64,000 nt of DNA from contig JAQSXC010000006.1 of assembly GCA_029266335.1 (NCBI GenBank), forward strand, positions 1 through 64,000, read 5' to 3'. Made by a program: the position numbers and the translations under genes. Within the stretch, counting starts at the first letter, position 1, and every line of letters starts with the position of its first letter. The notes under the pieces are model-generated. The model made no database searches and had not been told where the DNA came from. It saw only the letters and a list, made by a program, of their open reading frames with translations. This DNA comes from Eubacterium sp. Lineage in GTDB: Bacteria; Bacillota; Clostridia; Acetivibrionales; DSM-1351. Shown here in pieces: positions 2,377 through 43,042 of the stretch.

Positions 2377-2406
2377 ATTATACCAAATAAAAGCTATACA
2401 AATCAA
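2377..2406 (-). promoter_or_regulatory. Sigma-A promoter of the HPr-like gene
   Basis: On the minus strand, TTGATT (2401-2406) and TATAAT (2377-2382) are separated by 18 bp and lie about 45 bp upstream of the HPr-like start codon. Confidence 0.6.
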
Positions 2407-2509
2407 ACTCTGAAAATATTATATTTCATTTAGGATAAATTTATCAAGGGCTTACGAAATGTTTATGTGTTTTTTATAAAAAATTGCCCAAAACTCAGTT
2501 CAAATAAGG

Positions 2510-3987: not shown

Positions 3988-4550
3988 AATACCTCCTCCT
4001 TTCTTGCACTATCAAGCTTTTCCTTTAACATAAGCCTGGCTCTGTATAGCCTGTTCTTTATAATTGACATGGGTTCATTCAGCACCTTTGTCATTTCTTC
4101 ATAAGACATTCCGTTATTATGAAAGAGTACTATAAGTATTCTATATTTTTCAGGTAATTCATTAATAGCTTTTTTAATTAATTGTGACCTTTGTTTTTTT
4201 ATCAAGGTCTGTTCAGGTGTATCAATATCGCTCGAAACTCCAATAGCATCATCCAGTGTAACAGTATCCTGCTTTTTCTTTCTTAAGGTGTCCAGACACA
4301 AATTAGAAGTAATCTTTACAATCCAGGTTGACATTTTGTATTCGGGATTATATTTTTCAAGAGACTTGTACAATCTGATAAAAACCTCTTGAGATACGTC
4401 ATTGACTTCTTCTTTATCCGATATCATCTTGTAGACTACACTGTATACCAGTTTTTTATATCTGGTTACTATTTCTTCAAACGCACTACTATCACCGTTT
4501 ATACATCGTGATACTAGTTCTGCATCTGTAAGCACCAAAGCTTGATACAC
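3984..4550 (-). CDS. ECF-family RNA polymerase sigma factor (SigW-like)
   Basis: An extracytoplasmic-function sigma factor of about 185 residues. Region 2 is recognisable (FEEIVTRYKKLVYSVVYKMI, then VNDVSQEVFIRLYKSLEKY and MSTWIVKITSNLCLD). Region 4 is at the C-terminus (LPEKYRILIVLFHNNGMSYEEM, IIKNRLYRARLMLKEKL). It directs transcription of an unknown regulon in response to an envelope signal and is held by the anti-sigma factor encoded downstream. The start is uncertain: GTG 4550 directly abuts the GGGGG ribosome binding site, so TTG 4538 or GTG 4535, with better spacing, may be the real start. Confidence 0.9.
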   Translation of the reverse strand: MYQALVLTDAELVSRCINGDSSAFEEIVTRYKKLVYSVVYKMISDKEEVNDVSQEVFIRLYKSLEKYNPEYKMSTWIVKITSNLCLDTLRKKKQDTVTLDDAIGVSSDIDTPEQTLIKKQRSQLIKKAINELPEKYRILIVLFHNNGMSYEEMTKVLNEPMSIIKNRLYRARLMLKEKLDSARKEEVL

Positions 4551-4606
4551 CCCCTTTCACATTGCAATATATAATAGTTACGCTGAAAACTGTAATATGT
4601 CTGAAA

Positions 4607-8805: not shown

Positions 8806-9988
8806 TGCTTACCCTTTCGTATACGACAGCCCCGTTTATAATTGTCTTCTGTACCTTTGTTTTTAATTCCAAAGGGTCTCCATCATATATAACTATATCG
8901 GCATCCTTGCCATTTTCAATTGAACCAACTCTATTGCCAATTCCAACTATTTCAGCAGCATTTATTGTTATTGCCTTAAGAGCTTCTTTTGGTTCCATTC
9001 CTTCACGGACGGCAATAGAAGCACAAAGGCACAAATGCTGAACCGGAACACATGGGTGATCGGTCATAATCGCCAGCTTGATTCCCTGCTTCGAAAGTAT
9101 GCCCGGATTCTTCAGGTTCTGGTTTCTCAACTCAGGCTTGGACCGGTCGGTAAGCATCGGACCGACAATAACAGGAAGTCCCGATTCCAAAAGCAAATCT
9201 TTTATAAGATAACCTTCGGTACAGTGTTCCAGCGTAATATTCAAATCAAATTCTTTTGCAATCCTCATTGCGGTTATAATATCATCAGCCCTGTGAGCAT
9301 GGGCTTTTAAAGGGATCTCCTTGTTTAGCACCTGTACCAGGGATTCAAGCTTGAAGTCAAATTCAGGTTTATCAAGTTCTTCCGTATTCTTTCTGTATTC
9401 TTCCCAAAGTTCTTTATATTCTTTGGCCTTAAACAGATTTTCTCTTAAAATGGCGGCAGTTGCCATTCTTGTCATTGGTGACAGATGCTTTTCATTGTAT
9501 ACAGTCTTTGGGTTTTCACCAAAAGCTACCTTCATGGCAACGGGTTGTTTTATTATCATTTCATCCACACATCTGCCGAAGGTCTTAAGGGCAGCAAACT
9601 GGCCGCCGATAACGTTTGCGCTTCCGGGACCGGTTACAACTGACGTAACCCCACTTTCATAAGCTTCAACAAATGCCCGGTCGGCATGGTAAACAGCATC
9701 AATGGCTCTCAGCTGAGGTGTGACAGGGTCGGTGGATTCATTTCCGTCGTCCCCTTCAAAACCTATGGCATCCTCCCACATTCCGATGTGGCTGTGTGCA
9801 TCAATAAACCCTGGTAACACATAGCCTCCTTTGGCATCAATTTTCGTTACATCTGATGTCAAACCGGCCTCAATCTCGCTTAAATCATTGCCTACAGCTA
9901 TTATTTTATCTTTATCGCATAAAATATATCCGTTACTATAATCTACATCTGTCATTGTCATTATTTTTCCATTATATATTAAAAGCAT
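8798..9988 (-). CDS. Amidohydrolase (imidazolonepropionase-like metal-dependent hydrolase)
   Basis: A 396-residue cytosolic enzyme of the amidohydrolase superfamily. A small N-terminal beta domain (GKIMTMTDVDYSNGYIL) precedes the TIM barrel. The HxH metal motif is GFIDAHSHIGMWED (about 60-73). Further likely metal ligands are in KAHAHRADD (about 229-237) and TLEHCTEGY (about 254-262), with MTDHPCVP (about 312-319) supplying the catalytic Asp. The C-terminus has GSIENGKDADIVIYDGDPL. Similar genes occur next to ordinary housekeeping genes in many clostridia and the physiological substrate is not established. A GGGGG site precedes ATG 9988. Confidence 0.85.
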   Translation of the reverse strand: MLLIYNGKIMTMTDVDYSNGYILCDKDKIIAVGNDLSEIEAGLTSDVTKIDAKGGYVLPGFIDAHSHIGMWEDAIGFEGDDGNESTDPVTPQLRAIDAVYHADRAFVEAYESGVTSVVTGPGSANVIGGQFAALKTFGRCVDEMIIKQPVAMKVAFGENPKTVYNEKHLSPMTRMATAAILRENLFKAKEYKELWEEYRKNTEELDKPEFDFKLESLVQVLNKEIPLKAHAHRADDIITAMRIAKEFDLNITLEHCTEGYLIKDLLLESGLPVIVGPMLTDRSKPELRNQNLKNPGILSKQGIKLAIMTDHPCVPVQHLCLCASIAVREGMEPKEALKAITINAAEIVGIGNRVGSIENGKDADIVIYDGDPLELKTKVQKTIINGAVVYERVSND

Positions 9989-10326
9989 AAAACCCCCATA
10001 TTATAAATATTTTTTGATAATGCTGAAATTTTTTAAAATTTATATTGCCGGTTATATTAATAGAAACAAATCCTTCCTTATATTATATAACCCCGCAAAC
10101 TTTTTCGGCATTATTAATTTTATTATATTATAACGCATTGGTTCAATAGAAACTTTTTCGATAGTAAAAAAATCTCCTTACCTTGCGAAAATTAAAATAT
10201 GCAATACTTCATCAAATATCTTTTATATTTGCCTATATCCCGGTTATATATCACCATATTTTGAATATATTTATATTAAGAACAAAAATCTTCTCACTTG
10301 GTTATAAGAAGTAGCTTAAGATGATT
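9989..10326. other. AT-rich intergenic region
   Basis: It presumably carries the promoter of the leftward amidohydrolase gene, but no promoter stands out among the many AT-rich hexamers. I see no open reading frame, RNA gene or long repeat. Confidence 0.5.
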
Positions 10327-14629: not shown

Positions 14630-16252
14630 TCAGATTTCCAGCTTTTCAATCTCCTCCTCAGCCCTGCTCTTATCTATCCTTTCAAACAGAAGCCCTGTTT
14701 CAGGCAGCGCGTAGCCGCAGGCAACATACTTTGGCTTCCAGCTGTCATCCAAGCCCAGCCAGCCTTGAATCTTTTGAGAGGAAAAGGGTAGAAAGGGTTT
14801 AAGCAGTACCGATAAGCTTGCTATTAGCTGAACACAATTATACAGAGTATTTTCACAGTCCTTAGGATCAGTATTCCGTGTTTCCCATGGCTTGCGGCTG
14901 TCAAAGTACTTATTTGACCAGCGGACAAATTCAAATATTCCGTCCAGTGCTTCTTTGAAGGAACCGTTCTCCAGTCTGCTTCCTGTTACGCAAAACAGCT
15001 TCTCTATATTATTTGTTGTCTCAACTTCCAGACTCCCCTCGGGAACTATCCCATTATAGTATTTTGCTATAAAGGCCAGATTTCGGTTTGCAAAGTTGCC
15101 GTAAGCACCCAATAGCTCTCCGTTGTGACTGTTAATATACTCTCTCCAGGTAAAATCCGTGTCTCTTTTTTCAGGTCCGTTGGTTATCAGAAAATATCTT
15201 ATTGAGTCGGGATCATAATTTTCCAGCATATCCTTCACCCAGACAGCGTAGTTTTTACTGGTTGAAATTTTCCTCCCTTCAAGTGTCAGATATTCACAGG
15301 ATATCATCTCATCAGGCAAATGCCAGCCTTTTCCGTTGGCCAGCAATAGACCAGGGAGAATTATGGAGTGAAAAGGTATGTTATCCTTACCATGAACGTA
15401 GTAGTGTTTTGAGGTATCTCCGAACCATAGCTCATTGAAATCATCCCCTCGACTTCCTGCAACCTGTGCACTGGCAGAGAGATACCCCAGCACATTTTCG
15501 GCCCAGATATATATCTTCTTTTCATCGAAGCCCTTTTCAGGTACTTCTATGCCCCAGTCAAGGTCACGTGTGACAGCCCTGTCTCTCAAGCCTTCATTTA
15601 TATACTTTTTTGAAAATGCTATTGCATTCCTTCTCCAATCAGGATGGCTGTCAATAAATTTGCTTATTGGGCCCTCCAACTGTGACAGTGCAATATAAAG
15701 GTGGTTTGTATCTCTGAATTCCGGAGTGTTTTTGCATACAGAGCAGCTTGGCGTCTTCAGCAGCTCCGGTTCAAGAACCTTACCACAAGCTTCGCACTGG
15801 TCCCCTCTCGCTTCCTGTCCACACTCGGGACATTTCCCTTCCACAAACCTGTCTGCCAGAAAGTTTTGACAGACAGGACAATATGCCTGAGGTACACTTT
15901 TTTCGTAAATATATTTGCCTTTATACATTGTTTTATGAAACTCTTTGACAAAGTTTTTGTGCTCGGCAGATGAAGTCTTGTCATACAAATCATAGGTAAA
16001 GCCCAGTCTCTTAAAGCAATCCAGGAACTCCAGGTGATAAAGATCGCTTATCTCTTCAGGTGTCCTCCCCTCCTGCTTCGCCCTGATAGCTACAGGTGTT
16101 CCATGGCAGTCACTTCCTGAGACATAGAAAACCTTGTCTCCTTTGGCCCTGTGGTATCTGGCCAGTATATCCCCCGGAATAAGTGCAGAAACCCGGCCTA
16201 TGTGAAGTGATCCGTTGGCATAAGGCCATGCCCCTCCAATTAAAATATTCAT
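14630..16252 (-). CDS. metG: Methionyl-tRNA synthetase, short form
   Basis: A class I aminoacyl-tRNA synthetase of 540 residues charging tRNA-Met. The HIGH motif is HIGR (17-20, after GGAWPYANGSL) and KMSKS is KISTS in LEGRKISTSKNY. The connective peptide keeps four Cys pairs (CPVC, CPEC, CEAC, CSVC), so it is a double zinc-knuckle form. It lacks the C-terminal tRNA-binding dimer domain found in longer bacterial enzymes. Expression is controlled by the T-box leader upstream, with a Met specifier codon. The bidirectional terminator at 14561-14607 ends the transcript. Confidence 0.96.
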   Translation of the reverse strand: MNILIGGAWPYANGSLHIGRVSALIPGDILARYHRAKGDKVFYVSGSDCHGTPVAIRAKQEGRTPEEISDLYHLEFLDCFKRLGFTYDLYDKTSSAEHKNFVKEFHKTMYKGKYIYEKSVPQAYCPVCQNFLADRFVEGKCPECGQEARGDQCEACGKVLEPELLKTPSCSVCKNTPEFRDTNHLYIALSQLEGPISKFIDSHPDWRRNAIAFSKKYINEGLRDRAVTRDLDWGIEVPEKGFDEKKIYIWAENVLGYLSASAQVAGSRGDDFNELWFGDTSKHYYVHGKDNIPFHSIILPGLLLANGKGWHLPDEMISCEYLTLEGRKISTSKNYAVWVKDMLENYDPDSIRYFLITNGPEKRDTDFTWREYINSHNGELLGAYGNFANRNLAFIAKYYNGIVPEGSLEVETTNNIEKLFCVTGSRLENGSFKEALDGIFEFVRWSNKYFDSRKPWETRNTDPKDCENTLYNCVQLIASLSVLLKPFLPFSSQKIQGWLGLDDSWKPKYVACGYALPETGLLFERIDKSRAEEEIEKLEI

Positions 16253-31889: not shown

Positions 31890-32627
31890 TTAATAGTATA
31901 TCTCCATCAGGTACAGCCCCTGTGCCGGAGCAGTCTTGCCTGCTTTTGTCCTGTCAAGGCCTTTGATTATCCCGGGAATCAGGCTTTCCTTAAGTTTTCC
32001 CATTCCTACATATATCAGTGTGCCTGCAATTATTCTTACCATGTTGTATAAAAAGCCGTTCCCTGTTACCTCTATTTCAATCAGGTTATCTTCTTTTTTA
32101 GAAACATTCATGCTGTAGATTTCACGGACTGTGCTCCGGACTTGTCCTCCCGTAGCCTGAAAAGCTGCAAAATCATGCTCACCGACAAAATGTGCCGCAG
32201 CTTTTTTTATCTGTTCGAAATCAAGCTCCGGTCTCACATGACATGCTCTGTTGCGCATTATTGCGGATTGGTGGGCTGAATTGCATATGAGATATCTATA
32301 TTTCTTGCCTTTTGAGGAATATCTGGCGTGAAAATCTCCTGATACCTCCTCGGATTTCTGTATTACTATATCATCAGGCAGGAGATTATTTATGGCGTAT
32401 GAAAACTTTTCTCCGGGTATGGTGGAATTTGTGAAGAAATGCGCAACCTGGCCGTAGGCATGAACCCCAACATCCGTCCTGCTGCAGCCAATAACTCCGG
32501 CCTCTGTTCCCAGCAGCTTTGCAAGGGCTTTTTCAACACACTCCTGCACAGTTAAGGCATTCTTTTGAACCTGCCAGCCATGGTAATTTGTTCCGTCGTA
32601 TTCTATTGTTAATTTGATATTCCGCAT
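31890..32627 (-). CDS. truA: tRNA pseudouridine(38-40) synthase TruA
   Basis: Makes pseudouridine at positions 38-40 in the anticodon arm. The 245-residue protein starts MRNIKLTIEYDGTNYHGWQ and has catalytic Asp52 in GCSRTDVGVHAYGQ, with GNGFLYNMVRIIAGTL near the end. AGGTGG precedes the ATG. It follows ecfT in the conserved ecfA-ecfT-truA order, but the next usual gene, rplM, lies far away behind accessory genes. Confidence 0.97.
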   Translation of the reverse strand: MRNIKLTIEYDGTNYHGWQVQKNALTVQECVEKALAKLLGTEAGVIGCSRTDVGVHAYGQVAHFFTNSTIPGEKFSYAINNLLPDDIVIQKSEEVSGDFHARYSSKGKKYRYLICNSAHQSAIMRNRACHVRPELDFEQIKKAAAHFVGEHDFAAFQATGGQVRSTVREIYSMNVSKKEDNLIEIEVTGNGFLYNMVRIIAGTLIYVGMGKLKESLIPGIIKGLDRTKAGKTAPAQGLYLMEIYY

Positions 32628-32781
32628 TTAACCACCTGTATATCATGGGTTTTCTCATTAGATTTTGCCGGTTTCGACCAATAATATCCGCCGTTAACCT
32701 ATTGTCCTATACATTTTATCGACTGCCGTCTTCTGCCTGAGGTCTTTTTATTGCTATCATCTGTCTTCCGACTTCCGCCGG

Positions 32782-33585
32782 TTAAAGCACCATATTCTGC
32801 ATTACCAGTACCCATGCCATAAATACGACAGTTATTGCTGCTGCAATCAAATCATACCTTGTGAAGCTCAGCTGCTTCATCCTTGTCCTGCCTTCACTGC
32901 CCCTGTAGCACCTTGCCTCCATTGCAGTAGCCAGCTCGTCAGCCCTGCGGAACGCGCTGATAAACAAAGGTATAAGTACAGGGATAAAACTTTTGGCGCG
33001 TTCCACCATGTTTCCCGTATCGAAATCAGCACCTCTTGATGACTGAGCCTTGATTATCTTGTCCGTTTCTTCAAGAAGTGTGGGTATAAACCTTAAAGCT
33101 ATTGTCATCATCATAGCTATTTCATGCACCGGTACCCTTATTTTTCTAAGAGGTCCTAAAAGCTTCTCAATTCCGTCTGTCAATGCAATTGGTGTAGTGG
33201 TGTACGTTAGCAGACTTGCAATGATTATGAGCAGAAAAAGCCTTATAGCCATCTTTATGGCCGTATCCACACCCTCGTAAGTCATTTTAAGAAAACCTAT
33301 CCGGAAAATCTCTGTTCCCCCAATGGTAAACATGTTTATTATTCCTGCAAAAATCACAATAAATATGACAGGCTTTAAACCCTTCAGCACAAATTTGACC
33401 GGAATATTTGCAGTTACAATGGTCAAGGCTGTAAAAATCGTTAACAGCAGATAACCCCAATAAGTATTTATCAAAAATATAAAAATCATCATTACAAACG
33501 TCAGAATTATTTTTGTACGGGGATCTGATTTGTGAAGAAGGGATTCTCCCGGTACATACTGACCTATTGTTATATCTCTTATCAT
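32782..33585 (-). CDS. ecfT: EcfT, transmembrane scaffold of a group 1 ECF vitamin transporter
   Basis: A 267-residue membrane protein starting MIRDITIGQYVPGESLLHKSDPRTK. It has four or five hydrophobic segments and the two coupling motifs of EcfT in the cytoplasmic arm (AQSSRGADFD and EARCYRGSEGRTR). It connects exchangeable S components to the EcfA1/EcfA2 ATPases. ATG 33585 has GGAG 5 nt upstream; the frame extends to 33609 without a site. It lies directly after ecfA2. Confidence 0.95.
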   Translation of the reverse strand: MIRDITIGQYVPGESLLHKSDPRTKIILTFVMMIFIFLINTYWGYLLLTIFTALTIVTANIPVKFVLKGLKPVIFIVIFAGIINMFTIGGTEIFRIGFLKMTYEGVDTAIKMAIRLFLLIIIASLLTYTTTPIALTDGIEKLLGPLRKIRVPVHEIAMMMTIALRFIPTLLEETDKIIKAQSSRGADFDTGNMVERAKSFIPVLIPLFISAFRRADELATAMEARCYRGSEGRTRMKQLSFTRYDLIAAAITVVFMAWVLVMQNMVL

Positions 33586-33637
33586 TAAAGCTCCATTTCC
33601 GCCTGGCAAAAAAACTTGCCAAAGTACATTAGTTCCT

Positions 33638-34480
33638 CTATGCTTTCAAATGCTTTTTCAATTCTCTGGCTGCAGCTTCCACAGTAAATATATTTTCATC
33701 TATATCAGGAAAAATAGTTTTGAGCCTTTTCATCAGGTAGGTTATCTGCGGTGCTGAAAGACCAATTCTTTCAAGTTCCCCGGGTTGAGTGTATACCTCA
33801 TTTGAAGGCTTATCCATAAATACAGTGCCCTGATTCATGACTATTACCCTTTGAGCCAGTTTCGCAATATCCTCCATGCTGTGGGAAACCAGGATAATTG
33901 TCATACTGAAATCTCTGTGAAGTCTTTTAATATATCCGAATATCTCATCCCTTCCACTGGGGTCCAGACCGGCTGTCGGCTCATCAAGTACCAGTATTTT
34001 AGGCATCATGGCTACAACTCCTGCAATAGCAACTCTGCGCTTCTGTCCTCCTGACAGTTCAAAGGGTGATTTTTCTAAAATCAACTCATCAAGTCCTACC
34101 GAAAACAGTGCAGAAATAACCCTCTTCCGGATTTCCTCCTCTGAAAGCCCCTGCTTTATAAGTCCAAAGGAAATATCCTTTTTAACGGTATCTTCAAAAA
34201 GCTGATGCTCAGGATATTGAAATACAATACCGACCTGACGCCTCAGTTCCTTCAGATCCTTTTGCTTTGTATCTATACCGTTAATTATTACACGTCCCCG
34301 CGTCGGCTTGAGTATACCGTTCAAATGCTGAATAAAGGTGGATTTGCCTGAACCGGTATGCCCGATTATACCAATAAACTCACCGTCATTTATATCAATA
34401 TTTATATCGCTTAACGCATTTTTCTCAAATGGCCCGCCGTTGGAATATGTATACGACAGACCTTCTATATTAATAGGCAT
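33638..34480 (-). CDS. ecfA2: EcfA2, energy-coupling factor ATPase
   Basis: A 280-residue ABC ATPase, with Walker A GHTGSGKST, Q-loop GIVFQYPEHQLFE, signature LSGGQKRR, Walker B ILVLDEPTAGLDP and H-loop VSHSMED. The QYPEHQLF Q-loop matches EcfA2 paralogues. It pairs with EcfA1 and EcfT. Its partner ecfA1 normally sits directly upstream, but here it is 7.5 kb away, so the ECF module is split. Confidence 0.94.
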   Translation of the reverse strand: MPINIEGLSYTYSNGGPFEKNALSDINIDINDGEFIGIIGHTGSGKSTFIQHLNGILKPTRGRVIINGIDTKQKDLKELRRQVGIVFQYPEHQLFEDTVKKDISFGLIKQGLSEEEIRKRVISALFSVGLDELILEKSPFELSGGQKRRVAIAGVVAMMPKILVLDEPTAGLDPSGRDEIFGYIKRLHRDFSMTIILVSHSMEDIAKLAQRVIVMNQGTVFMDKPSNEVYTQPGELERIGLSAPQITYLMKRLKTIFPDIDENIFTVEAAARELKKHLKA

Positions 34481-34687
34481 AACTTACTCCCGAATATCCT
34501 TCTATTTATTATTATGGCAAAATTAATCCTCCGTGGCTTTAAGCCGCAGTAGTTAACTTTAGGCATGATTAAATATTACCACATCTTCGTGCATATAGTG
34601 AATAGTCAATAATAAAAACTGTACAGTTGCAGAAAGCCAGCATACGCCGGCCCTCTATCAATAAAAACCATTAATAAATAATTTCCC

Positions 34688-36511
34688 CTATTTAATCATT
34701 TTAATAAGCTGTTCCGAGGAAATATTTTCGGTAATCCCAAACCGTTTCATGGCTCGCAGCGATTGTGGCAAGCCTTTGATTATGGTATTTGTTCCGGCCT
34801 TGGTGGTAACTGTAGCTTTGATATCCATTCTGCTCAGAAAAACCTCTGTAAGCGTACTGTACTTTCCAAGGGGATAGGCCAGTGCTGTCACCTTGTTTCC
34901 AGTACCATCTTTTATTCCGTTTCCAGACTGCAAAATATCTTTCTTTAATAAATCAAGATAAGCATTTTCCTTATCCCCCTCAAGCGGCAATATGTTTGAT
35001 CTGGCCTTGCCCTTTTCAAAGTCGGCCCATTGATGCATATCGAAAGTGTGGCTCTGAATGTCAATCAGGCCAGAATCCAGCATTTCCTTTGCCTGTTCAT
35101 AGGTGAAATGAGGAGTAATGGGCTTACCGGTATCTTTATACGTATCCTTTCCAACAGAAACTCCTATTACAAAAATTGTGGCTTTCAAATTGTACTTTTT
35201 GAGAATAGGATAGGCCAGCTTGTAATTACTCAGATATCCGTCATCAAAGGTTATTAAAACCGGCTTCTCAGGCAGTTCTATTCCCTTTTCAACATAATCT
35301 GTCATCTGGTTGACAGTAATACCTGTGTACCCGGCTTCCGAGAGTGCCTTTATCTGCTCTTCAAATTTCCCGGTTGATACTACCATATCACCTGAAGACT
35401 TTTCTGCCATGTCATGATACATCAGTATCGGAACTCTTTTTGTATATGAGCTTTCGTCCATTTTCCGTATTTTAACCAGTGACTTTGACTGTTCTACTGC
35501 ATTTTCAGGTGTAACATAAACACCGATATTTCCAGGTCTGTAAACCTCATTATCTCCAAATATTTCAGCCAATGCCATCTTTCCCATGGCATTTCTGAAG
35601 TGTGTGCTGTCATAGAAGAATCTGCAATCCGATGTCAGGGAATTAACGGAAAAATCCCAGAAGTTCGTAATTTCAGCCAGGCGGGTATAAACCTCCGTCA
35701 ACTGCTGAGGATCGAAATTCTGTACATATTCATTGTACATTGGTGGAAAAAGCACCAGCAAATTTATATTATTCCTGTCGCAAAGTGCTTTGATTGATGC
35801 TACATCGTCTATAAAATCATCTATACTTGCAAGATTATGCTTGTCCTTGGGATAAGCCTTGAATACAGGATAATTCTCCAGATATGACCTGGTATCCTGT
35901 ATCGACTCGGTATCTCTGACGGATTTGTCATAAGCACCTGTTTCCACCTCAAAAACCTTGTATTTATTCTGAAGATAACTGTCATTTTTAAAAGCCCGGA
36001 GCTTTTCAAAAGCGTAATTGGGATTTGCAAAAAGGTATCTCTTGTAAAAATCCAACTTTGAGGATTGTTCGGTTTTGTAGTGCAGACTGCCTGTATATGG
36101 GTCTGACTCTACATTGTACCTCATGGCGTTTATAAATCCCAGATTCAGAACAAGATTTTTAACCTTATAATTATTGATTATATATTCCGTTGTATGCTTA
36201 ACATCATACATATCTGCGCCATACATAAATAGATTGTAGAACTTTGCATCCATATACCTGTTGAGCTGCTCTACGGGGAAGGATGAAGTAGAGGAGCTGC
36301 CTACGATAAATGAATCATACTCATCCTTATGCTGGTCCATATACGATATTTTTGCCACCCTGGGATTCTTGGTGAAATCGTAGGCATACCATTTCATAAT
36401 ATGGTCGCCGAAAGCACCGAAAGGGTCAACTACTATATTAATGCCGGCTATTCCCAATATGAGAAGCAGACCGGTCAATAAAAACATTATAAACCACTTT
36501 TTTGACGACAT
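34688..36511 (-). CDS. SGNH/DltD-like acyltransferase fused to NodB polysaccharide deacetylase
   Basis: A 607-residue membrane-anchored extracytoplasmic protein with an N-terminal helix (about 7-28). The first domain (about 30-330) resembles DltD/AlgX-type SGNH proteins. It has a serine-rich GSSSTSS (71-77) after a beta-strand and a C-terminal DSTH (301-304), consistent with a Ser...Asp-x-x-His triad. The second domain (about 355-607) is carbohydrate esterase family 4: PILMYHD, TFDDGY (421-426), SHTFDMH (487-493, metal His pair) and AYPLGKYS (545-552). It is last in a five-gene dlt-like operon. A protein that can both add and remove acyl groups at the surface is inferred, not shown. AAGGAG precedes the ATG. 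Confidence 0.82.
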   Translation of the reverse strand: MSSKKWFIMFLLTGLLLILGIAGINIVVDPFGAFGDHIMKWYAYDFTKNPRVAKISYMDQHKDEYDSFIVGSSSTSSFPVEQLNRYMDAKFYNLFMYGADMYDVKHTTEYIINNYKVKNLVLNLGFINAMRYNVESDPYTGSLHYKTEQSSKLDFYKRYLFANPNYAFEKLRAFKNDSYLQNKYKVFEVETGAYDKSVRDTESIQDTRSYLENYPVFKAYPKDKHNLASIDDFIDDVASIKALCDRNNINLLVLFPPMYNEYVQNFDPQQLTEVYTRLAEITNFWDFSVNSLTSDCRFFYDSTHFRNAMGKMALAEIFGDNEVYRPGNIGVYVTPENAVEQSKSLVKIRKMDESSYTKRVPILMYHDMAEKSSGDMVVSTGKFEEQIKALSEAGYTGITVNQMTDYVEKGIELPEKPVLITFDDGYLSNYKLAYPILKKYNLKATIFVIGVSVGKDTYKDTGKPITPHFTYEQAKEMLDSGLIDIQSHTFDMHQWADFEKGKARSNILPLEGDKENAYLDLLKKDILQSGNGIKDGTGNKVTALAYPLGKYSTLTEVFLSRMDIKATVTTKAGTNTIIKGLPQSLRAMKRFGITENISSEQLIKMIK

Positions 36512-36520
36512 TGTTTCTCC

Positions 36521-38113
36521 TTAAAATTGCTTGTAAATAAACTCTGAGGCTATATAACCCTCTCTGAATATCCCGAAAAATACAATTATTATTAAGCCGG
36601 CAGCCAGCACCAGCCACTGTATGAACATATTTTTCTTTTCCAAGGACTCTCTAATATGTATTCCCTTTTCCTTCAAATACCCGATAAATAATATGATCAA
36701 TCCGCATAGGAAAACCACCAGAAGGTCAAATGAACTCAAGCCCAATGAGAACACATTGGACACCAATGCTCTGGCATCAAAATGTAAAACAGTGCGTTTT
36801 ATCATTCGTAACGCAGTCATTAAGGTCTCTCCACGGGTAAAATATCTGCCGATAAATACTAGAACAGTTGTTCTAAGTATCTGAAACAGCTTCCAATATG
36901 TACTGTCGGAATTTATATGCAGCTTGTTTAATATTTTTGCATAGATTGGTGCATTTATCAGTGAAAAGGTAATGATACCGCCATTCCAAATACCAAAAGC
37001 AATGTACTTCCAGCTGGCACCATGCCAGATACCTATGGTGAAGAACACAATGAAAGTAACTAATGAAACAGGCAATATCTTGCCTAAATTGCCTTTCAGC
37101 CTCTTTCTGGCAAACTTGCCCAGCCTTCCAAAGGGTTTTGACAGTGACAGCGGGTAAAACAGATAGTCCTTCATCCATGCCCCAAGACTGATATGCCATC
37201 TTCTCCAGAAATCTGACAGGGAGGTTGCAAAATAAGGACGTTGAAAGTTTTCTATCATATCGATCCCAAGTATTTGTGCAACTCCTCTTATTATATCTAT
37301 GCCACCTGAAAAGTCGCAGTAAATCTGTATGCAATACATAAATACCGCAAAAGCTATTTCAGAACCTGAATATTTCTGATAGTTTGCAAAAACATTGTTT
37401 ACAATTACAGCTGTCCGGTCAGCAACTATGAGTTTTTTAAAAAAACCCCACATCATCAGCTGGATACCGTATTTTAATCGGTCGAAGCTGAAGGAGTGCC
37501 CTTTGTACAGCTGATGGGCCAACTGATCAAACCTGCTGATAGGTCCCTGGATTATCTGCGGAAAAAATGACACGAAAAGAGCGAACTTGAAGAAGTTCTG
37601 CTCGGGTGGATACTTGGATCTGTAGACATCTATTACATACCCTATTGATTGGAATGTATAAAAAGACAAACCAACAGGCAGCAGCCATTTATATGTCGGT
37701 AAACTGAAATCACTGAATAAACCCAAAAGTACATTTAAATTTTCAGCTGTAAAGTTATAGTATTTTATTGCGGCTAATATACCAAAGTTAATTAATAAAA
37801 TTCCAACTACAATCCACTTTTTGTTTCTTGTAATCCTATCTGAAATTGCCTTTTTTTCTTCGCTGGTAACCTCTTTGCCAAACTGCTGGAACCGGGCCTT
37901 CTTTTTGCTGTTAATAAGCCCCAGCAGTCTTCCTCCTGCATAGGTTGTAAAAGTTGTCATAAGCAGAAATGCTACTATCTTATATCCATAGGATAAATAA
38001 TAATAGTAGCTTGCTACAAGAAGAACCATCCACTGAACCTTTTTAGGAAGCAGATAATACAGTACGACAGTTACCGCCAAAAAGATTAGAAATGAGGCTG
38101 ACGACAATGACAT
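36521..38113 (-). CDS. MBOAT-family membrane O-acyltransferase (DltB/AlgI-like)
   Basis: A 530-residue polytopic protein with about ten hydrophobic segments. MBOAT hallmarks are SFFPQIIQGPI (about 182-192), DFWRRWHISLGAWM with His307 and the catalytic-type His364 in GIWHGASW. DltB and AlgI use this fold to move acyl groups from a carrier across the membrane to an acceptor. It lies between the carrier protein gene (5 nt upstream) and the SGNH-NodB gene (9 nt downstream), fitting the DltB role in this operon. Confidence 0.93.
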   Translation of the reverse strand: MSLSSASFLIFLAVTVVLYYLLPKKVQWMVLLVASYYYYLSYGYKIVAFLLMTTFTTYAGGRLLGLINSKKKARFQQFGKEVTSEEKKAISDRITRNKKWIVVGILLINFGILAAIKYYNFTAENLNVLLGLFSDFSLPTYKWLLPVGLSFYTFQSIGYVIDVYRSKYPPEQNFFKFALFVSFFPQIIQGPISRFDQLAHQLYKGHSFSFDRLKYGIQLMMWGFFKKLIVADRTAVIVNNVFANYQKYSGSEIAFAVFMYCIQIYCDFSGGIDIIRGVAQILGIDMIENFQRPYFATSLSDFWRRWHISLGAWMKDYLFYPLSLSKPFGRLGKFARKRLKGNLGKILPVSLVTFIVFFTIGIWHGASWKYIAFGIWNGGIITFSLINAPIYAKILNKLHINSDSTYWKLFQILRTTVLVFIGRYFTRGETLMTALRMIKRTVLHFDARALVSNVFSLGLSSFDLLVVFLCGLIILFIGYLKEKGIHIRESLEKKNMFIQWLVLAAGLIIIVFFGIFREGYIASEFIYKQF

Positions 38114-38118
38114 GGCTG

Positions 38119-38349
38119 CTATTCCCCATCTCTCAATCTATTTATCAGAGCCATGATTGACTCAACAGAATTGAAGTTTTCAGGGATCAGATCCTCTACT
38201 CCTATCTGCACATCAAATGTCTCATCAATTTCTCCCACAAGTGCAACAATATCAAAGGAGTCCAATATACCATCGTCTATAAGAGCTTTCTTTTCTTCAA
38301 AGTTTATATCAGGTCTTAATTCCTTTAAAATCCTATATAATTCTTCCAT
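38119..38349 (-). CDS. Acyl/aminoacyl carrier protein (DltC-like)
   Basis: A 76-residue four-helix carrier protein. The phosphopantetheine Ser is in GILDSFDIVALVGEI (Ser31), as in DltC-type LDSF motifs. It carries the activated acid from the ligase to the MBOAT protein. ATG 38349 has GGAG 6 nt upstream; the first ATG at 38361 is less well placed. Confidence 0.92.
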   Translation of the reverse strand: MEELYRILKELRPDINFEEKKALIDDGILDSFDIVALVGEIDETFDVQIGVEDLIPENFNSVESIMALINRLRDGE

Positions 38350-38446
38350 TTTATTCTCCATTTCCGATCAGGCTTCCTTCCTGATCTTCTTCGCTAAATT
38401 TCATTATTTCAATTTAATATATCACATTTATTATATAAGATAATAC

Positions 38447-39250
38447 TTATGATTTTTTTATCAGCCCTGCTGATTCCCAGCTGTCATATCTGAAACCTGT
38501 TGTCTCATATAATTTTCTTGCACTTATATTATCTTTTTTGACCCAGAGCTGAATTTTTGAGTTTTCATGTTCCTGAAGCATATTTCTATAAAAAGCAAGC
38601 AGCTTTTTTGCAATCCCCCGGTTACGTGCTTCCGGAAGGACTAAAAGATGCCATACGAACCAGGTGGTGCTTTTGCTGCCGATGTGCAACAGACCTAATA
38701 TCCGTCCATTCTCATCTTCAGCCGTAATTATTTCTTTTCTTGAAATACATTCTACAACCTCATCCTTGCAGGGAACACAACCAAGATATGGGTCAAAAGC
38801 GTCTGCTATCATTTTTTGTATTATTTCAGCTTGTCCTTGATCAGCAAAGCCTATGCCCTGCAAGTTATCACAGACAATATCCAATTCTTTCGGGGTAACC
38901 TTCATCCTTGCTCTGTTGATATAAGGTGAAAATCCCTTGGAAGTCCAGTAATCAAGCTGTCTGATTACCGAGTCGTTTTCATTTCTATATACAAGCTCCA
39001 TTACCAGAGGTTTATCACCCGGCAATTGAATATCACTGTCAGCATCTTTAATATGGTAATATATGCGCCAGCAGTTTTTACAGTCCAAAAACAAAGCCAG
39101 TATTGCCTCTGTTCTTTCGTAATATAAAGTCCCTGCCTTTATATAGGCATTGTATTTATCCTGCATTATAAAATTGTTTGATAAAACACCCTTTTTCATA
39201 AAATCTGTTAAAAGGCTGTTTAATTCACCGAGTTCCTTAATTTTTTTCAT
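38447..39250 (-). CDS. GNAT-family acetyltransferase in dlt-like operon
   Basis: A 267-residue protein. The C-terminal half (about 130-265) is a GNAT domain (LLHIGSKSTTWFVWHLLVLP, EARNRGIAKKLLAFYRN, ISARKLYETTGFRYDSW). The N-terminal half (about 1-125) looks like a degenerate second GNAT or binding domain. It overlaps the ligase gene by 14 nt and is followed by the carrier gene 97 nt later, so it is part of the pathway. It could make or modify the activated acid or acylate the carrier-bound group. Not found in canonical dlt operons. Confidence 0.82.
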   Translation of the reverse strand: MKKIKELGELNSLLTDFMKKGVLSNNFIMQDKYNAYIKAGTLYYERTEAILALFLDCKNCWRIYYHIKDADSDIQLPGDKPLVMELVYRNENDSVIRQLDYWTSKGFSPYINRARMKVTPKELDIVCDNLQGIGFADQGQAEIIQKMIADAFDPYLGCVPCKDEVVECISRKEIITAEDENGRILGLLHIGSKSTTWFVWHLLVLPEARNRGIAKKLLAFYRNMLQEHENSKIQLWVKKDNISARKLYETTGFRYDSWESAGLIKKS

Positions 39251-40775
39251 CAGTGTATTTCTCCACTAACTTTCTTCTGTCAATCTTGCCATTTGCATTA
39301 TAGGGAAAAGCCTCAAAGCATTTTAAAGTATTGGGAATCATATACTTTGGAAGCTTATCATTCAACTTTATTATCAATTGGGGTGTATCAATTCTTCCAA
39401 CATAAAAAAGCACTATTTTTGAGTCCTCATGATCATAGAAACATACGCATGCCGATACCTCATGAACAGTATTGACAGCTGCTTCAATTTCACCCAGCTC
39501 AATACGATTTCCCATATGCTTGACCTGACCGTCTTTCCTGGAAATGAACACAATTTCACCGTACTCATTGTATTTTCCAATATCACCGGTGCAGTACAGA
39601 ATGTCACGGTAGGAATTATTAAGCGGATTCTGAATAAAAACCTCATTTGATAGCTCAGGATTATTAATATAACCTAAAGCTACTCCGGTTCCTCTGACAC
39701 ATACCTCACCGGGATTACTTCCCGATACAGGTTTGCTATCCTCATCCAGCAGCATTACGTCCATGTTGCGGCAGGCATTTCCTATTGGTATTACTTCATC
39801 ATCACCAAACTCCCGGTTAACTATATAATAAGTACAATCCACCGTAGCCTCGGTTGGCCCGTACAGATTAACATACATTACTTCGGGCAGATAAGTGCGC
39901 CAGGCATTCATATGCCTTGCAAACATTGCTTCTCCTGCAAAAAATACCTTGTTCAAATAAGCCGGAAGTGATTTCTTTAATATCCGTGAATTGGCTACAA
40001 GTGTTATGGCCGAGGTAGCCCAAAGTATTGAAGTTACACGGTTATTATTAAGGTATTCCACAAGCTTTATAGGAAACATAAATAGTTTTTTAGGAATTAT
40101 ACACAGAGTAATTGCCTTTTTAATGCATAAGTAAATATCCTTTACAGATGCATCAAAATAGAAAGGAGTCTGATTTCCGATAACATCCTCACTGCTGAAG
40201 CCGAAGGTGTCATCCAGCCATTCAGCCAGATCTATTACATTCCTGTGAGGAACAACTATACCCTTGGGCGTACCGGTGGAACCTGAAGTAAATATTGTAT
40301 AAACCGGATCAGTATCAATTATCCTGTTTCTTACACTGTTCAGTTTTTTCTGGTCTTCCACATTGATTTTAGTTTCATATTTACAGTAATTATCAATACT
40401 CAATATTTCAGGAAGTCTTTCAACTCCCTCAAATACTTTGTTATCCTTTTCCTCAGCCAGTATAAGCCCGGGCTTCAGAGTATCGATAATTAACTGAAGT
40501 CGTTGTTTCGGGGTTTGATTATCAACGGGAACATAATAATTTCCACTATATAATACAGCCATAAATGAAACTACTGTTGAGCAAGTCCTGTCAACCATGA
40601 CAATTACAGGGGTTCTGATTGAGCCCGATATTGCATTTACTATAGCATAACCCAGAGACTTGGCCTTTTGTTCAAATTGAGAAAAAGTAATTTCCTGAGT
40701 CTCATCCTTTAAGGCAATTTTATCAGGAAAGCTGTATGCTGATTGTTCCAGGTATTCAAGTACATTTATACGCAA
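39237..40775 (-). CDS. Stand-alone amino acid adenylation enzyme (DltA/NRPS A-domain like)
   Basis: A 512-residue adenylate-forming ligase. Core motifs are FTSGSTGTPKG (163-172), FDASVKD with the Asp that binds an alpha-amino group in NRPS A domains (207-213), YGPTEAT (305-311), CTGDIG, and the C-terminal Lys497 in NANGKIDRRKL. It lacks condensation or thiolation domains. The Asp suggests an amino acid substrate; the side-chain pocket differs from both DltA and typical NRPS codes (Lys after the FDASV motif). It would load the carrier encoded two genes downstream. TTG 40775 is chosen because GGAGG is 5 nt upstream; GTG 40799 has no site. Confidence 0.88.
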   Translation of the reverse strand: MRINVLEYLEQSAYSFPDKIALKDETQEITFSQFEQKAKSLGYAIVNAISGSIRTPVIVMVDRTCSTVVSFMAVLYSGNYYVPVDNQTPKQRLQLIIDTLKPGLILAEEKDNKVFEGVERLPEILSIDNYCKYETKINVEDQKKLNSVRNRIIDTDPVYTIFTSGSTGTPKGIVVPHRNVIDLAEWLDDTFGFSSEDVIGNQTPFYFDASVKDIYLCIKKAITLCIIPKKLFMFPIKLVEYLNNNRVTSILWATSAITLVANSRILKKSLPAYLNKVFFAGEAMFARHMNAWRTYLPEVMYVNLYGPTEATVDCTYYIVNREFGDDEVIPIGNACRNMDVMLLDEDSKPVSGSNPGEVCVRGTGVALGYINNPELSNEVFIQNPLNNSYRDILYCTGDIGKYNEYGEIVFISRKDGQVKHMGNRIELGEIEAAVNTVHEVSACVCFYDHEDSKIVLFYVGRIDTPQLIIKLNDKLPKYMIPNTLKCFEAFPYNANGKIDRRKLVEKYTDEKN

Positions 40776-41178
40776 AAAAACCTCCAAAAGAGAACCCACC
40801 CATAATATCTTTTACTGCCCACTTCTGTATAACAGGCAAATTTTCTTTTTATAACTCATAACATAATCTCCGTTTAAGTCTTAGCAACTTGTTCAGAAGG
40901 TCAGTTATTCATTTGAATCTTATAATTATTAAAAGCCCTATATTTCAGGCTTTTCTCATTAATGACATAATTATATGGATTATTTCCAAATATATATTAT
41001 AACGAGGCGATAAAGAAACATACAAAGGTAATAATTTTTTCTACACTCGTAAAAATTTATCTAAACCTATGTGTTATAATAATAGTTATTATTATAAAAG
41101 TCAAGTAATCCACAAATCATTCGGCATGCAGGTACGATGCAAACTTGAATTATTTTTACCGGAGGTAAAAACAAAAAT
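40776..41178. other. Divergent promoter region of the dlt-like operon and methyltransferase
   Basis: It contains the hairpin AAAAGCC/GGCTTTT (40933-40956), which could act as an attenuator upstream of the ligase operon. It also holds a copy of a repeated sequence (41014-41080) with a TATAAT near 41074. No gene is seen. Confidence 0.5.
41014..41080. repeat. Copy 1 of a short dispersed repeat
   Basis: This segment is closely related to 58573-58640. Both read GAAACA, then GTAATAA, a T-run with TTCTACA, a run of A/T, TTATCT, and end in CCTATGTGTTATAA or TCTATGTGTTATAA. Confidence 0.6.
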
Positions 41179-41781
41179 ATGAGTCAACATTACTTTACTG
41201 AAAATCCCGATTCAGAAATAAAAGAAAAAAACTTTACTGAGAATATAAATGGAAAACAGTTAAGCTTCACCTCTGTCAGCGGAGTGTTTTCTTTTGAAAA
41301 TAAAGTTGATAAGGTATCGCATAATCTAATAAAAAATTTTACTCCTACGGGCAGCTCAATTCTTGACGTAGGCTGTGGCTACGGAGCTATTGGCTTATTC
41401 CTGAAAGCGCTTTTCCCTGCTCAAAACTTAACTATGATAGACATAAACAACAGGGCTCTTGATTATACAAAAAAAAATGCAGCTGCCAACACTCTGGAAG
41501 TAGAGATTATTCACAGTAATCTATATGATGCCCTGCCAGGAAGGGTTTTTGATGACATAGTTTCAAATCCGCCCTTTGCTGCAGGTAAGGAACTGAATAC
41601 CAGGCTCATATCCCAAGCCTTTGAGCACCTTTCAACCAATGGTTCCCTATGGCTTGTTGCTTTTCATAACAAAGGCGGCTCTAGTCTTAAGGAAATTATG
41701 AAAAACACATTCGGAAATGTAACTGATATTGATAAAAGCGGCGGTATAAGGGTATATAAAGCAATCAAGAAAATTTACTAA
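41179..41781 (+). CDS. Class I SAM-dependent methyltransferase (RsmC-like)
   Basis: A 200-residue enzyme. The SAM motif is LDVGCGYGAIGLF (about 61-73), with an acidic motif II ending IDINNRALDYTKKN. NPPFAAGKE (about 129-137) is the NPPF motif of amino-group methyltransferases, as in RsmC/YbxB enzymes that methylate 16S rRNA guanine N2. The GGAGG site is 11 nt before the ATG. It is the only rightward gene in this segment and separates the dlt-like operon from ecfA1. Confidence 0.88.
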   Translation: MSQHYFTENPDSEIKEKNFTENINGKQLSFTSVSGVFSFENKVDKVSHNLIKNFTPTGSSILDVGCGYGAIGLFLKALFPAQNLTMIDINNRALDYTKKNAAANTLEVEIIHSNLYDALPGRVFDDIVSNPPFAAGKELNTRLISQAFEHLSTNGSLWLVAFHNKGGSSLKEIMKNTFGNVTDIDKSGGIRVYKAIKKIY

Positions 41782-41973
41782 CTCATTAATCTGCTTCTCT
41801 TTTATGCAATAATCAGATTACTCTCTAAGAGTCCCTTGCGGACTCTTGCGGGAACTACACCCTTTGGCAAGCTACTTCTCATTGATAACCTACTCCATCT
41901 AGATAAATTACTCACTTCTACAAACACTCAACTTCAACCAAATACTCCTCAGTTCTCTTATCAGGAACTTACA

Positions 41974-42822
41974 CTACCTTGTCAAATCCTTTATAATCTC
42001 GAATGCCTCATCTACCGTTAACGGGAGCTTATTTATATTTACACCTTGTTTCTTCAGGTCATACATCAGTTCTGTTACCTGAGGCACATCCAGTCCGAGG
42101 TTCTTGACCTTGTCGACATTACTGAAAACCTCTTGTGGAGTACCATCCAGCACAATGTTGCCATCATCAATTATAATTAATCTGTTTGCTATTGCAGCTT
42201 CATCCATATGATGTGTTATATGAATAATAGTTATATTCTCTTCCTTATTGAGCTTTTTCAATACTTTTATTACCTCCCTGCGGCCGACAGGATCCAGCAT
42301 TGAGGTGGCTTCATCAAGAATTATACATTCAGGCTTCATGGCCAGTATACCTGCAATGGCAACACGCTGCTTCTGACCTCCTGACAAAAGATGGGGTGCA
42401 TTTTTCTTAAATTCGCTGATACCCACAGTCTCCAGGGACTCGTCCACCCTTCTGCGGATTTCTGAAGGTTCCACTCCCAGATTTTCAGGGCCGAAGGCCA
42501 CATCTTCCTCAACAGTAGTAGCAATAATTTGATTGTCAGGATTCTGAAATACCATACCGGCAGTACTTCTGATCTCCCAGACATTATCTTCATTGGAGGT
42601 ATCCTTTCCTGCGACAAGCACAATACCCTTTTTAGGAACTAAAAGAGCATTAAGCAGCCTTGAGAATGTAGATTTTCCCGAACCGTTCCTGCCTAAAATA
42701 ACTACAAAGTCACCTCTGTCTATCTTGACAGAGACATCCTCCAAAGCCGGTACTTCAACAGGTACTTCCCCATATGTGTTGTATGAAAAACTTACTTCCT
42801 GAACATCAAAAAATATACTCAT
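41974..42822 (-). CDS. ecfA1: EcfA1, energy-coupling factor ATPase
   Basis: A 282-residue ABC ATPase, with Walker [11 protein letters not shown]-loop [28 protein letters not shown], signature LSGGQKQR, Walker [14 protein letters not shown] and H-loop ITHHMDE. The QNPDNQ Q-loop and AFGPENLG match EcfA1. It works with EcfA2 and EcfT. ATG 42822 follows GGGG by 6 nt; the frame begins at 42834. Unusually it is 7.5 kb from ecfA2 and preceded by a hairpin-rich leader. Confidence 0.95.
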
Positions 42823-42865
42823 TACAATCCCCATCCCGCTGTGAAGCAGCGTTTTAAAAAGTTAT

Positions 42866-42887
42866 AAAAACCTGCCTGCAGGTTTTT
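42866..42887. terminator. Terminator/attenuator hairpin just upstream of ecfA1
   Basis: AAAAACCTGC and GCAGGTTTTT are perfectly paired with a 2-nt loop, about 45 nt upstream of the ecfA1 start. GCGTGAAA/TTTCACGC just upstream and CGCTG/CAGCG before the ribosome binding site form two more hairpins. It could end a transcript entering from rplQ or act as a regulated attenuator of ecfA1. Confidence 0.7.
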
Positions 42888-42983
42888 AATGCGTGAAAAC
42901 AACGATTATACACAAAACTTTACTTTCACGCAGACCTCCATAATTCCTTATGCATATACTATTCCGTGTAACACATCATATAA

Positions 42984-43042
42984 ATATAGGGACTAAACAT
43001 ATCGGCGACGCTTACGCTGCCGGCATGTCTAGTCCCCTATAT
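42984..43042. terminator. Long hairpin after rplQ
   Basis: A stem of about 26 bp with a few mismatches (ATATAGGGACTA at 42984 pairs with TAGTCCCCTATAT ending 43042). It lies 30 nt after the rplQ stop and probably ends the alpha operon transcript. Confidence 0.75.

Follow-up and report, generated by a model that had tools for sequence, protein, structure and literature searches.

A Dlt-like operon of Eubacterium sp. with an SGNH-CE4 fusion protein and an exchangeable donor module, a putative system for acylation of a surface polymer

Described systems and the layout of the operon

In the Dlt system (dltXABCD), which D-alanylates teichoic acid, a ligase, a carrier protein, an MBOAT protein and an SGNH protein occur together, and feeding of the MBOAT by the carrier thioester has been shown there. 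Stand-alone NRPS adenylation domains and FkbH enzymes, each with a carrier, likewise form a thioester on a free carrier, aminoacyl with the former and glyceryl with FkbH, and the product goes to a peptide or polyketide line. The CE4 de-N-acetylases PgaB/IcaB and PplD have the CE4 fold with its metal-binding motifs. The PatAB, AlgIJ/X and clostridial CcsHI systems combine an MBOAT ending in the FXYXXF acyl-shuttle motif with a separate membrane-anchored SGNH-type partner (accessible part of PMC12148441; PMC7710045), and the same accessible part of PMC12148441 gives these non-Dlt MBOAT-SGNH pathways as having no carrier, evidently because they are acyl-CoA users.

Here we analyzed a window of 64,000 nucleotides (the whole stretch of DNA, contig JAQSXC010000006.1 of assembly GCA_029266335.1), which holds an operon sharing ligase, carrier, MBOAT and a predicted SGNH protein with Dlt and in which the carrier thioester would also feed the MBOAT. 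It differs from Dlt by having no DltX gene, the motif being placed on the MBOAT itself, by an extra tandem GNAT, by the fusion of SGNH to CE4, by a ligase of another clade with another pocket and by the gene order. It has the FXYXXF-ended MBOAT and the membrane-anchored SGNH-type partner in common with PatAB, AlgIJ/X and CcsHI, and differs from them in its carrier, ligase, GNAT and the CE4 domain on the partner. Unlike in PgaB/IcaB and PplD, this CE4 domain sits behind an SGNH transferase domain in one protein, and unlike in the NRPS and FkbH loaders, the thioester product would go to an MBOAT-SGNH pair. The features are given below.

34688-40775, minus strand: operon of five genes, in the order ligase, GNAT, carrier, MBOAT, SGNH-CE4 fusion
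39237..40775, minus strand: ligase that stands alone and would adenylate amino acids, an AMP-binding enzyme of DltA/NRPS type; start codon TTG, pocket code DAKSFALVDK
38447..39250, minus strand: tandem GNAT acyltransferase (degenerate N-terminal GNAT and acetyl-CoA-binding C-terminal GNAT)
38119..38361, minus strand: carrier protein, phosphopantetheine serine Ser35 at 38257-38259
36521..38113, minus strand: MBOAT acyltransferase with His307 and His364
36524..36541, minus strand: C-terminal hexapeptide FIYKQF of the MBOAT, fitting the FXYXXF motif and containing Tyr527
34688..36511, minus strand: membrane-anchored SGNH-CE4 fusion, single ORF
35552..36382, minus strand: SGNH domain within the fusion, roughly residues 44-320, with Ser73, Asp301 and His304
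34691..35443, minus strand: CE4/NodB domain within the fusion, roughly residues 357-607, with D423, D424, H488 and H493
33638..34480, minus strand: ecfA1, neighbour gene at one edge of the insertion
41179..41781, plus strand: methyltransferase gene, neighbour at the opposite edge

An earlier note, made from the sequence alone, had placed five same-strand genes here; all five lie on the minus strand and are supported by motifs and by the Pfam families AMP-binding (E 1.3e-61), GNAT, PP-binding, MBOAT and Polysacc_deac_1, and the SGNH part of the fusion has no Pfam family match. The ligase starts with a TTG directly behind GGAGG, whereas the mechanical ORF opens earlier, at GTG 40799. Ligase and GNAT overlap by 14 nt, GNAT and carrier are 85 nt apart, and the gaps between carrier and MBOAT (5 nt) and between MBOAT and fusion (9 nt) leave no space for a DltX microprotein. 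The operon is an insertion within its genus and is present in 2 of 11 genomes; the methyltransferase gene adjoins ecfA1 in 9 of the 11. An Rfam search of 32000-43000 gave zero matches, tRNA genes were not found in the window, and neither promoter-like sites (27 against 24.4 in shuffles) nor terminator-like sites (4 against 4.4) were in excess. No named system matching the operon gene for gene was found in the literature searched; the qim operon of S. pyogenes was rejected as a match, its genes in the accessible part of PMC13059722 being different.

The MBOAT and SGNH-CE4 transfer pair

The MBOAT protein is recognized by Pfam (MBOAT, E 1.1e-12), its sole PDB sequence match is DltB, and it stays below the cut-off of the DltB profile TIGR04091 (132.1 against 375 bits). 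The His307 and His364 of the earlier note, as well as the LDSF serine of the carrier (Ser35), are confirmed. Among the MBOATs of 440 aa or more the C-terminal tyrosine (Tyr527) is kept in 72/72, and the catalytic position 364 is His in 65/72 and Gln in 7/72, the Gln weighing against the proposal made below. Residue 307 is Asn in 17/72, every one in an FkbH locus; it was rejected as a mark of donor type and tracks descent instead, because His is found in L111 (FkbH), L035 (no loader) and L036 (ligase).

Fusion of an SGNH protein to a CE4 deacetylase is borne out by conserved motifs and by the AlphaFold2 model (mean pLDDT 95.5, pTM 0.92), which has both domains confidently placed relative to each other. 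The N-terminal half resembles SGNH esterases (structural Z up to about 12) and the PatB O-acetyltransferase (Z 10.7); the fold match to DltD is weak (Foldseek E 2.1e-4, TM 0.25/0.36, rmsd 12.4), and DltD is not among the 50 structural matches listed for the fusion, which weighs against the proposal made below. This half has the conserved G-x-S and D-x-x-H, represented by Ser73, Asp301 and His304, and with the one N-terminal helix of the model the SGNH partner would be extracytoplasmic. The CE4 half resembles PgaB (3vus, Z 29.4) and PplD (6dq3, Z 29.3) and bears the motifs TFDDG, H-x4-H and P-x-G (D423, D424, H488, H493, P547, G549), and the fusion scores 119.4 bits with the PgaB profile, against a cut-off of 321.9.

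In the alignment of 81 fusions D301, H304 and D423 are kept in 81/81 and S73, D424, H488 and H493 in 80/81; the conservation counts cover MBOATs of at least 440 aa, carrier ORFs of 60-160 aa and fusions of at least 560 aa, with L033-L042 excluded. Two loci apparently have one half of the fusion inactive, as judged from their residues: L099 has S73A with intact CE4 residues and no MBOAT in the stretch examined, and L052 keeps the SGNH residues and all partner genes and has four CE4 positions changed. The fusion of genome G131 (L148) has no MBOAT in the stretch examined, yet it keeps Ser73, which weighs against the proposal. NodB-only matches in G329, G126 and G435 were considered as split versions of the fusion and rejected, and the plasmid and phage searches matched the CE4 half only.

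The donor module and its exchange among related loci

The ligase stays below both DltA profile cut-offs (283.6 against 559.85 bits and 285.1 against 476 bits; TIGR01734, NF003417), and in the tree the operon ligases form a clade of 100/100 separate from 6 DltA. For this tree 31 NRPS-like loci were fetched and 30 entered, of which 11 were skipped (one was too short, and 10 contained stops, all of them matches on the minus strand that had been translated from the opposite one), and L033 was omitted as a copy of L045. The marks of an alpha-amino acid substrate, Asp235 and Lys517, are present in 53/53 aligned ligase rows, and Lys/Arg239 in 52/53. DltA has Met/Leu239, Cys301 and Ala/Cys331, where the operon ligase has Lys, Ala and Asp, and such a pocket speaks against D-Ala as the predicted substrate.

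The pocket appears Glu-like: Lys239 and the VD at 330-331 occur as in DAKDLGVVDK, which we take to be the glutamate code, and position 278 is Ser instead of Asp. With 6/10 letters in common between the two codes and this Ser278, the assignment is a guess, and glutamate itself may be the substrate, which we hold to be plausible and somewhat short of probable. The first domain of surfactin, predicted for Glu/Asp, has the code DAKDLGVV (accessible part of PMC10548584), and the fragments DAKDLG and DAQDLGVVD are printed in the accessible parts of PMC10548584 and PMC12283262, respectively; the full code DAKDLGVVDK was not found in print in the literature searched. The Paenibacillus ligase (DIFTWALLDK) and that of L036 (DNVTLCLDVK) have no Lys239, which counts against the proposal. 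The table of pocket codes leaves out L057 and L094, whose ligases do not exceed 250 aa, and contains R. hungatei twice (L033, L045).

The tandem GNAT (Pfam Acetyltransf_1, E 4.8e-12) has a predicted model of pLDDT 95.9 which aligns with MshD (2c27) over 256 positions (Z 18.4, rmsd 4.0), and across 398 genomes of the phylum its profile finds only its own genome and two others, both with the entire operon. It probably acts on the donor, because GNAT and carrier are a single protein in L071 and because Paenibacillus has a ligase-GNAT-carrier trio, followed by a KASIII-like gene, in a 19.5-kb stretch from which an MBOAT is absent. The GNAT step is not obligatory, since GNAT-less relatives have the same or nearly the same pocket code as GNAT-bearing ones (L089, L090 and L093 the same as L059; L115 one letter apart from L061). 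The carrier passes the PP-binding cut-off (21.1 against 20.8 bits), its serine is kept in 73/73 aligned carrier ORFs, and DltC is among its best matches; with the DltC profiles NF003464 and TIGR01688 it stays below the cut-offs (35.8 against 68 and 25.4 against 52.35 bits).

Related loci were searched with patterns built from fused proteins, and the best 80 of the 158 found, in Clostridia and other Bacillota, were compared. The fusion is one ORF in 80/80, a count valid for this clade because of the origin of the patterns; unfused SGNH relatives adjoin MBOATs in L040-L042. The five-gene set with the fusion recurs as in the window in 42 of these best 80 loci, far beyond chance; the GNAT is missing in 10, an FkbH-type loader replaces ligase and GNAT in 20 (including L095 with its nearest MBOAT 8.6 kb off, L107 which starts at a contig end and L111 with a broken MBOAT frame), and 8 are cut or incomplete. 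The MBOAT/fusion pair has a carrier beside it in 75/80 and a ligase or FkbH in 72/80. Judged by length, five locus pairs are the same contig each (L033/L045, L034/L096, L039/L087, L146/L050 and L147/L048). Three FkbH proteins were scanned against TIGR01686 (276.7-281.4 bits, cut-off 146.65), and the remaining ones were assigned by a profile built in this analysis. Many of the Clostridia having related loci are, going by their records, known only from animal-gut metagenomes.

The transfer pair (MBOAT and SGNH-CE4) is constant, and the donor module is exchangeable between ligase+GNAT+carrier, ligase+carrier and FkbH+carrier. A FastTree of 83 fusions requires 6 donor changes, with the FkbH locus L111 among ligase loci and the ligase locus L036 among FkbH loci. 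As the CE4 domain is fused whichever donor module is present (80/80 loci), it probably acts on the acceptor. In the literature searched no description of a different loading enzyme feeding the same transfer enzymes was found. Neighbour clustering of 81 loci, many with short flanks, gave as its largest two clusters the GNAT itself (33 loci) and apparent antisense ORFs (29 loci), no other conserved neighbour in more than 10/81 and no glycan gene linked to the operon.

Proposed mechanism and its alternatives

We consider it likely that the operon encodes an MBOAT-SGNH system which is fed by a carrier, whose donor module can be exchanged and which acylates a polymer of sugars at the cell surface, the acyl group being probably a small acidic amino acid. 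The ligase would adenylate an alpha-amino acid, most likely Glu or another one with a side-chain carboxylate, and load it on the carrier. The tandem GNAT may then N-acylate the carrier-bound amino acid, probably from acetyl-CoA, a step to which we give an even chance. By analogy with the published Dlt/PatAB mechanism, the MBOAT would move the acyl group from the carrier to the tyrosine of its own C-terminal FIYKQF. The SGNH half would accept it on Ser73 and esterify an extracytoplasmic polymer, and the CE4 half would de-N-acetylate amino sugars of the same polymer. PNAG appears a less likely acceptor, the own genome having no PgaC/IcaA above cut-off (best 180.1 against 422.3 bits). The earlier note had proposed a Dlt-like variant by which a surface polysaccharide receives an amino acid or another small acid; this core agrees with the tests, and the probable roles of GNAT and CE4 are revised to the donor and the acceptor side, respectively.

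A wider and speculative version, which we rate as improbable though above each alternative below, is a transmembrane platform in which one MBOAT/SGNH-CE4 pair has in evolution been fed by acidic amino acid modules (N-acetylated or not) or glycerate modules, the fused enzyme couples de-N-acetylation of an amino-sugar polymer to its acylation, perhaps at the very nitrogen set free, and a swap of the loader lets a species reset the charge of its polymer.

It is unlikely that an N-acyl exchange takes place, in which CE4 frees the nitrogen of an amino sugar and SGNH places the carrier-derived acyl group there, as an extracytoplasmic counterpart of the NodB and NodA steps. The union of both domains in one protein with every donor type and their confident relative placement would suit it, but L052 retains SGNH and all partners with four CE4 positions changed, and the MBOAT-SGNH systems in the accessible part of PMC12148441 form esters.

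Slightly less likely again is a diverged Dlt system which D-alanylates teichoic acid and gained GNAT and CE4 later. Ligase, carrier, MBOAT and SGNH protein each have a Dlt counterpart, DltB and DltC are matched as described, and the own genome has no canonical DltA above cut-off, so that the Dlt site is vacant. Against this, the mismatch with canonical dltXABCD which the earlier note had seen holds: by profile cut-off and by clade the ligase is not DltA, and its pocket is unlike that of DltA. The operon does not fit Dlt because the clade of its ligases is a separate one, none of ligase, MBOAT and carrier exceeds a Dlt cut-off, no dltX fits in the gaps and the MBOAT ends in the motif.

Plain O-acetylation, with an incidental carrier and an MBOAT using acetyl-CoA, appears very improbable: the C-terminal motif is that of AlgI/PatA types, but the operon does not look like a plain system of this kind because a carrier is present, as it is beside the pair in most of the best 80 loci along with a ligase or FkbH, and the PDB sequence match of the MBOAT is DltB. 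Protection of the amino acid by GNAT acetylation and removal of the acetyl group by CE4 after transfer is hardly credible. In its favour, the GNAT travels with the donor and the fold of CE4 is that of amide hydrolases; against it, the fusion includes CE4 just as well in the 20 FkbH loci and the 10 lacking a GNAT, where there would be no such acetyl group.

In the proposed reading of a carrier-fed system, the operon family, having both a carrier and an MBOAT shuttle motif, joins the Dlt branch with the carrier-less one, so that the features by which an MBOAT selects a carrier as donor could be tested on it. That one transfer pair switches between FkbH and amino-acid loaders predicts aminoacyl, N-acetylaminoacyl and glyceryl decorations on clostridial surface polymers, and with one fusion half apparently inactive in each of L052 and L099, the roles of the two halves are directly testable.

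Gene content, predicted folds and genomic setting

The operon occupies 34688-40775 on the minus strand, and its genes are as follows.

First gene, minus strand: ligase, 512 residues
Second gene, minus strand: GNAT, 267 residues
Third gene, minus strand: carrier, 80 residues
Fourth gene, minus strand: MBOAT, 530 residues
Fifth gene, minus strand: SGNH-CE4 fusion, 607 residues

This five-gene set had been proposed in the earlier note, and Pfam/NCBIfam recovered every part of it other than SGNH, where no family gave a score. The fusion was modelled by AlphaFold2 from an alignment of 46 sequences (mean pLDDT 95.5, pTM 0.92) as an N-terminal helix (residues 3-28) followed by the SGNH domain and then the CE4 domain. 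In structure comparison of the model, the best rows for the CE4 half were tied between PgaB 3vus (Z 29.4, rmsd 2.6, 242 aligned) and PplD 6dq3 (Z 29.3, rmsd 2.1, 221 aligned). The SGNH half gave Z of about 12 with esterases such as TesA and Z 10.7 with PatB 7tlv (rmsd 4.3, 168 aligned), and DltD 6pfx matched the fusion model weakly, by Foldseek only (E 2.1e-4, TM 0.25/0.36, rmsd 12.4). Two structures tie as closest to the modelled tandem GNAT (pLDDT 95.9, alignment of 39 sequences): 7q3a (Z 18.0) and mycothiol synthase MshD 2c27 (Z 18.4, rmsd 4.0, 256 aligned). MshD adds an acetyl group to a cysteinyl amine; the likeness of the modelled fold to it does not establish function.

Judged by its sequences, the operon is not a Dlt system. 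None of the five genes passed an NCBIfam Dlt cut-off, and no DltA above cut-off was found in the window's own genome (92.6 percent complete), in 60 relatives or in 81 phylum genomes (own genome included in both sets), with Bacillus subtilis and Lactococcus lactis positive as controls. The cut-off alone underestimates Dlt, because two likely DltA from these sets fall just under it (549 and 544.7 against 559.85 bits) and cluster with annotated DltA in the ligase tree; the window ligase reaches half that score.

The operon is an inserted accessory block. Of 11 genomes of the genus, 9 have a methyltransferase gene and ecfA1 as direct neighbours without it, with ecfA2 visible beyond ecfA1 in 8 of those 9 and outside the stretch in the ninth (L200). 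In the window and in one compared genome (G004) the five genes sit between ecfA1 and the methyltransferase gene, the fusion gene adjoining ecfA1. A possible leader ORF of 15 residues (MSYKKKICLLYRSGQ; 40812-40859, minus strand) was read by eye upstream of the window ligase and may be due to chance. At related locus L146 a same-strand gene of the arylamine N-acetyltransferase family (14830-15612; Pfam Acetyltransf_2, 230 bits) lies directly upstream of the ligase, and the gene so placed at L147 (10740-11558) resembles it by eye.

Distribution and donor modules

The fusion was present in 8 of 60 relatives, own genome included: complete in G000, G004, G048, G040 and G054, as two matched pieces within one open frame in G014, and as partial matches in G028 and G044. 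At class level 14 of 391 genomes, own included, match it over full or nearly full length. At phylum level 14 of 398 fall under E 1e-60, 4 of them (own included) over full length and the remaining 10 over the CE4 half. A pattern scan of named genomes gave 158 loci, and the best 80 were retained; most of these come from metagenome-assembled Oscillospiraceae and other Clostridia, with Ruminiclostridium hungatei and Agathobaculum butyriciproducens among them.

SGNH and CE4 form a single ORF in all 80 of these best loci. The whole set described in the earlier note (ligase, GNAT, carrier, MBOAT, fusion) does recur, in 42/80; the GNAT is missing in 10/80, FkbH is found in 20/80, and 8/80 fall in an "other" class. 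Of these eight, four (L062, L063, L070, L101) are interrupted by contig ends, L078 has GNAT, carrier, MBOAT and fusion without ligase, L076 and L113 have carrier, MBOAT and fusion without a loader, and L099 has the fusion alone. FkbH enzymes load a glyceryl unit on a carrier. All three FkbH proteins scanned were above the TIGR01686 cut-off. Carrier and FkbH stand downstream of the fusion in 19 of the 20 FkbH loci and upstream in L111. The FastTree of 83 fusions requires six switches between donor classes A, B and C, with L111 placed among ligase loci and L036, having a ligase and a short GNAT, among FkbH loci; the number of swaps is approximate because deep support in this tree is uneven. L036 also carries a transposase-like gene (DUF772; 9313-10020) on the opposite strand between the MBOAT and fusion genes.

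An operon of such composition was not found described in the open-access papers searched, judged by titles and abstract openings; this is weak evidence of novelty.

Putative shuttle motif of the MBOAT

According to PMC12148441, the DltX hexapeptide of Dlt receives carrier-bound D-Ala on its Tyr and hands it on to DltD, whereas in PatAB the same FXYXXF motif ends the MBOAT, acetyl-CoA is the donor and no carrier takes part. The window MBOAT bears FIYKQF and the operon also has a carrier. It thus shares the carrier with Dlt, where the motif is on DltX, and the motif position with PatAB, where the carrier is absent. The Tyr of this motif is kept in 72/72 long MBOATs, but its last residue is not fixed, being F in 47, Y in 14, I in 9 and V in 2. 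In one clade of seven loci (L103, L104, L105, L108, L113, L122, L123) Gln replaces the catalytic His364, and Tyr replaces Phe525 within the motif; its six ligase-bearing loci have the pocket code DVK[SA]MSLCNK and are without GNAT. The own genome has a second MBOAT and SGNH pair of unfused type (contig C102, L043, 5030-6975), with only a short SGNH match and an MBOAT ORF that ends without the usual motif, naturally or by assembly error.

Predicted ligase substrate and proposed roles of GNAT and CE4

In the IQ-TREE analysis 52 ligases and a Paenibacillus ligase form one clade of 53 (100/100), separate from 6 DltA (100/100) and 19 NRPS domains (100/98). The window pocket code is DAKSFALVDK and the most frequent is DLKSIGLVDK (14/53 rows); position 239 is Lys or Arg in 52/53, and position 331 holds Asp (46 rows), Asn (6) or Val (1). 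The same reading gives DLMSLCTVAK for 3/6 DltA and near variants for the other three. Two papers report that the first surfactin domain reads DAKDLGVV, predicted Glu/Asp (PMC10548584), and that DAQDLGVVDK recognises Glu and Gln (PMC12283262). From the pocket codes and these published ones, glutamate or a similar diacid is therefore favoured as the candidate substrate, the chance that it is glutamate itself being somewhat less than even. The L036 ligase (DNVTLCLDVK) must, on its code, use a substrate other than a glutamate-like one.

The GNAT appears to go with the donor side, because one protein of 353 residues at L071 (7062-8120) comprises both the GNAT (residues 4-267) and the carrier (281-350), and because Paenibacillus cellulosilyticus has ligase, GNAT and carrier, then a KASIII-like gene, with no MBOAT found in the 19.5-kb stretch around them. 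The Paenibacillus ligase pocket (DIFTWALLDK) is without Lys239, and the trio is therefore not bound to one amino acid. Upstream at this site (L184, 6879-12664, plasmid unnamed4) lie genes for a second carrier, an SDR and an AAC(3)-like protein; the cluster perhaps acylates an amino sugar or some other small molecule from a carrier-bound donor.

The CE4 half most likely acts on the acceptor, because it is retained with every donor type, even where the predicted acyl is without nitrogen. Two single metagenome loci agree with such a role. At L099 the fusion (1831-3669) has Ser73 changed to Ala with CE4 residues intact, and no MBOAT was found in its 12.9 kb, the contig beginning 1.8 kb upstream; at L052 the fusion (3892-5715) has H366, D424, H488 and H493 changed with SGNH residues intact and all partners present. 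The SGNH half of the former and the CE4 half of the latter are apparently inactive. A contrary case is genome G131 (L148), where no MBOAT was seen nearby, yet Ser73 is kept.
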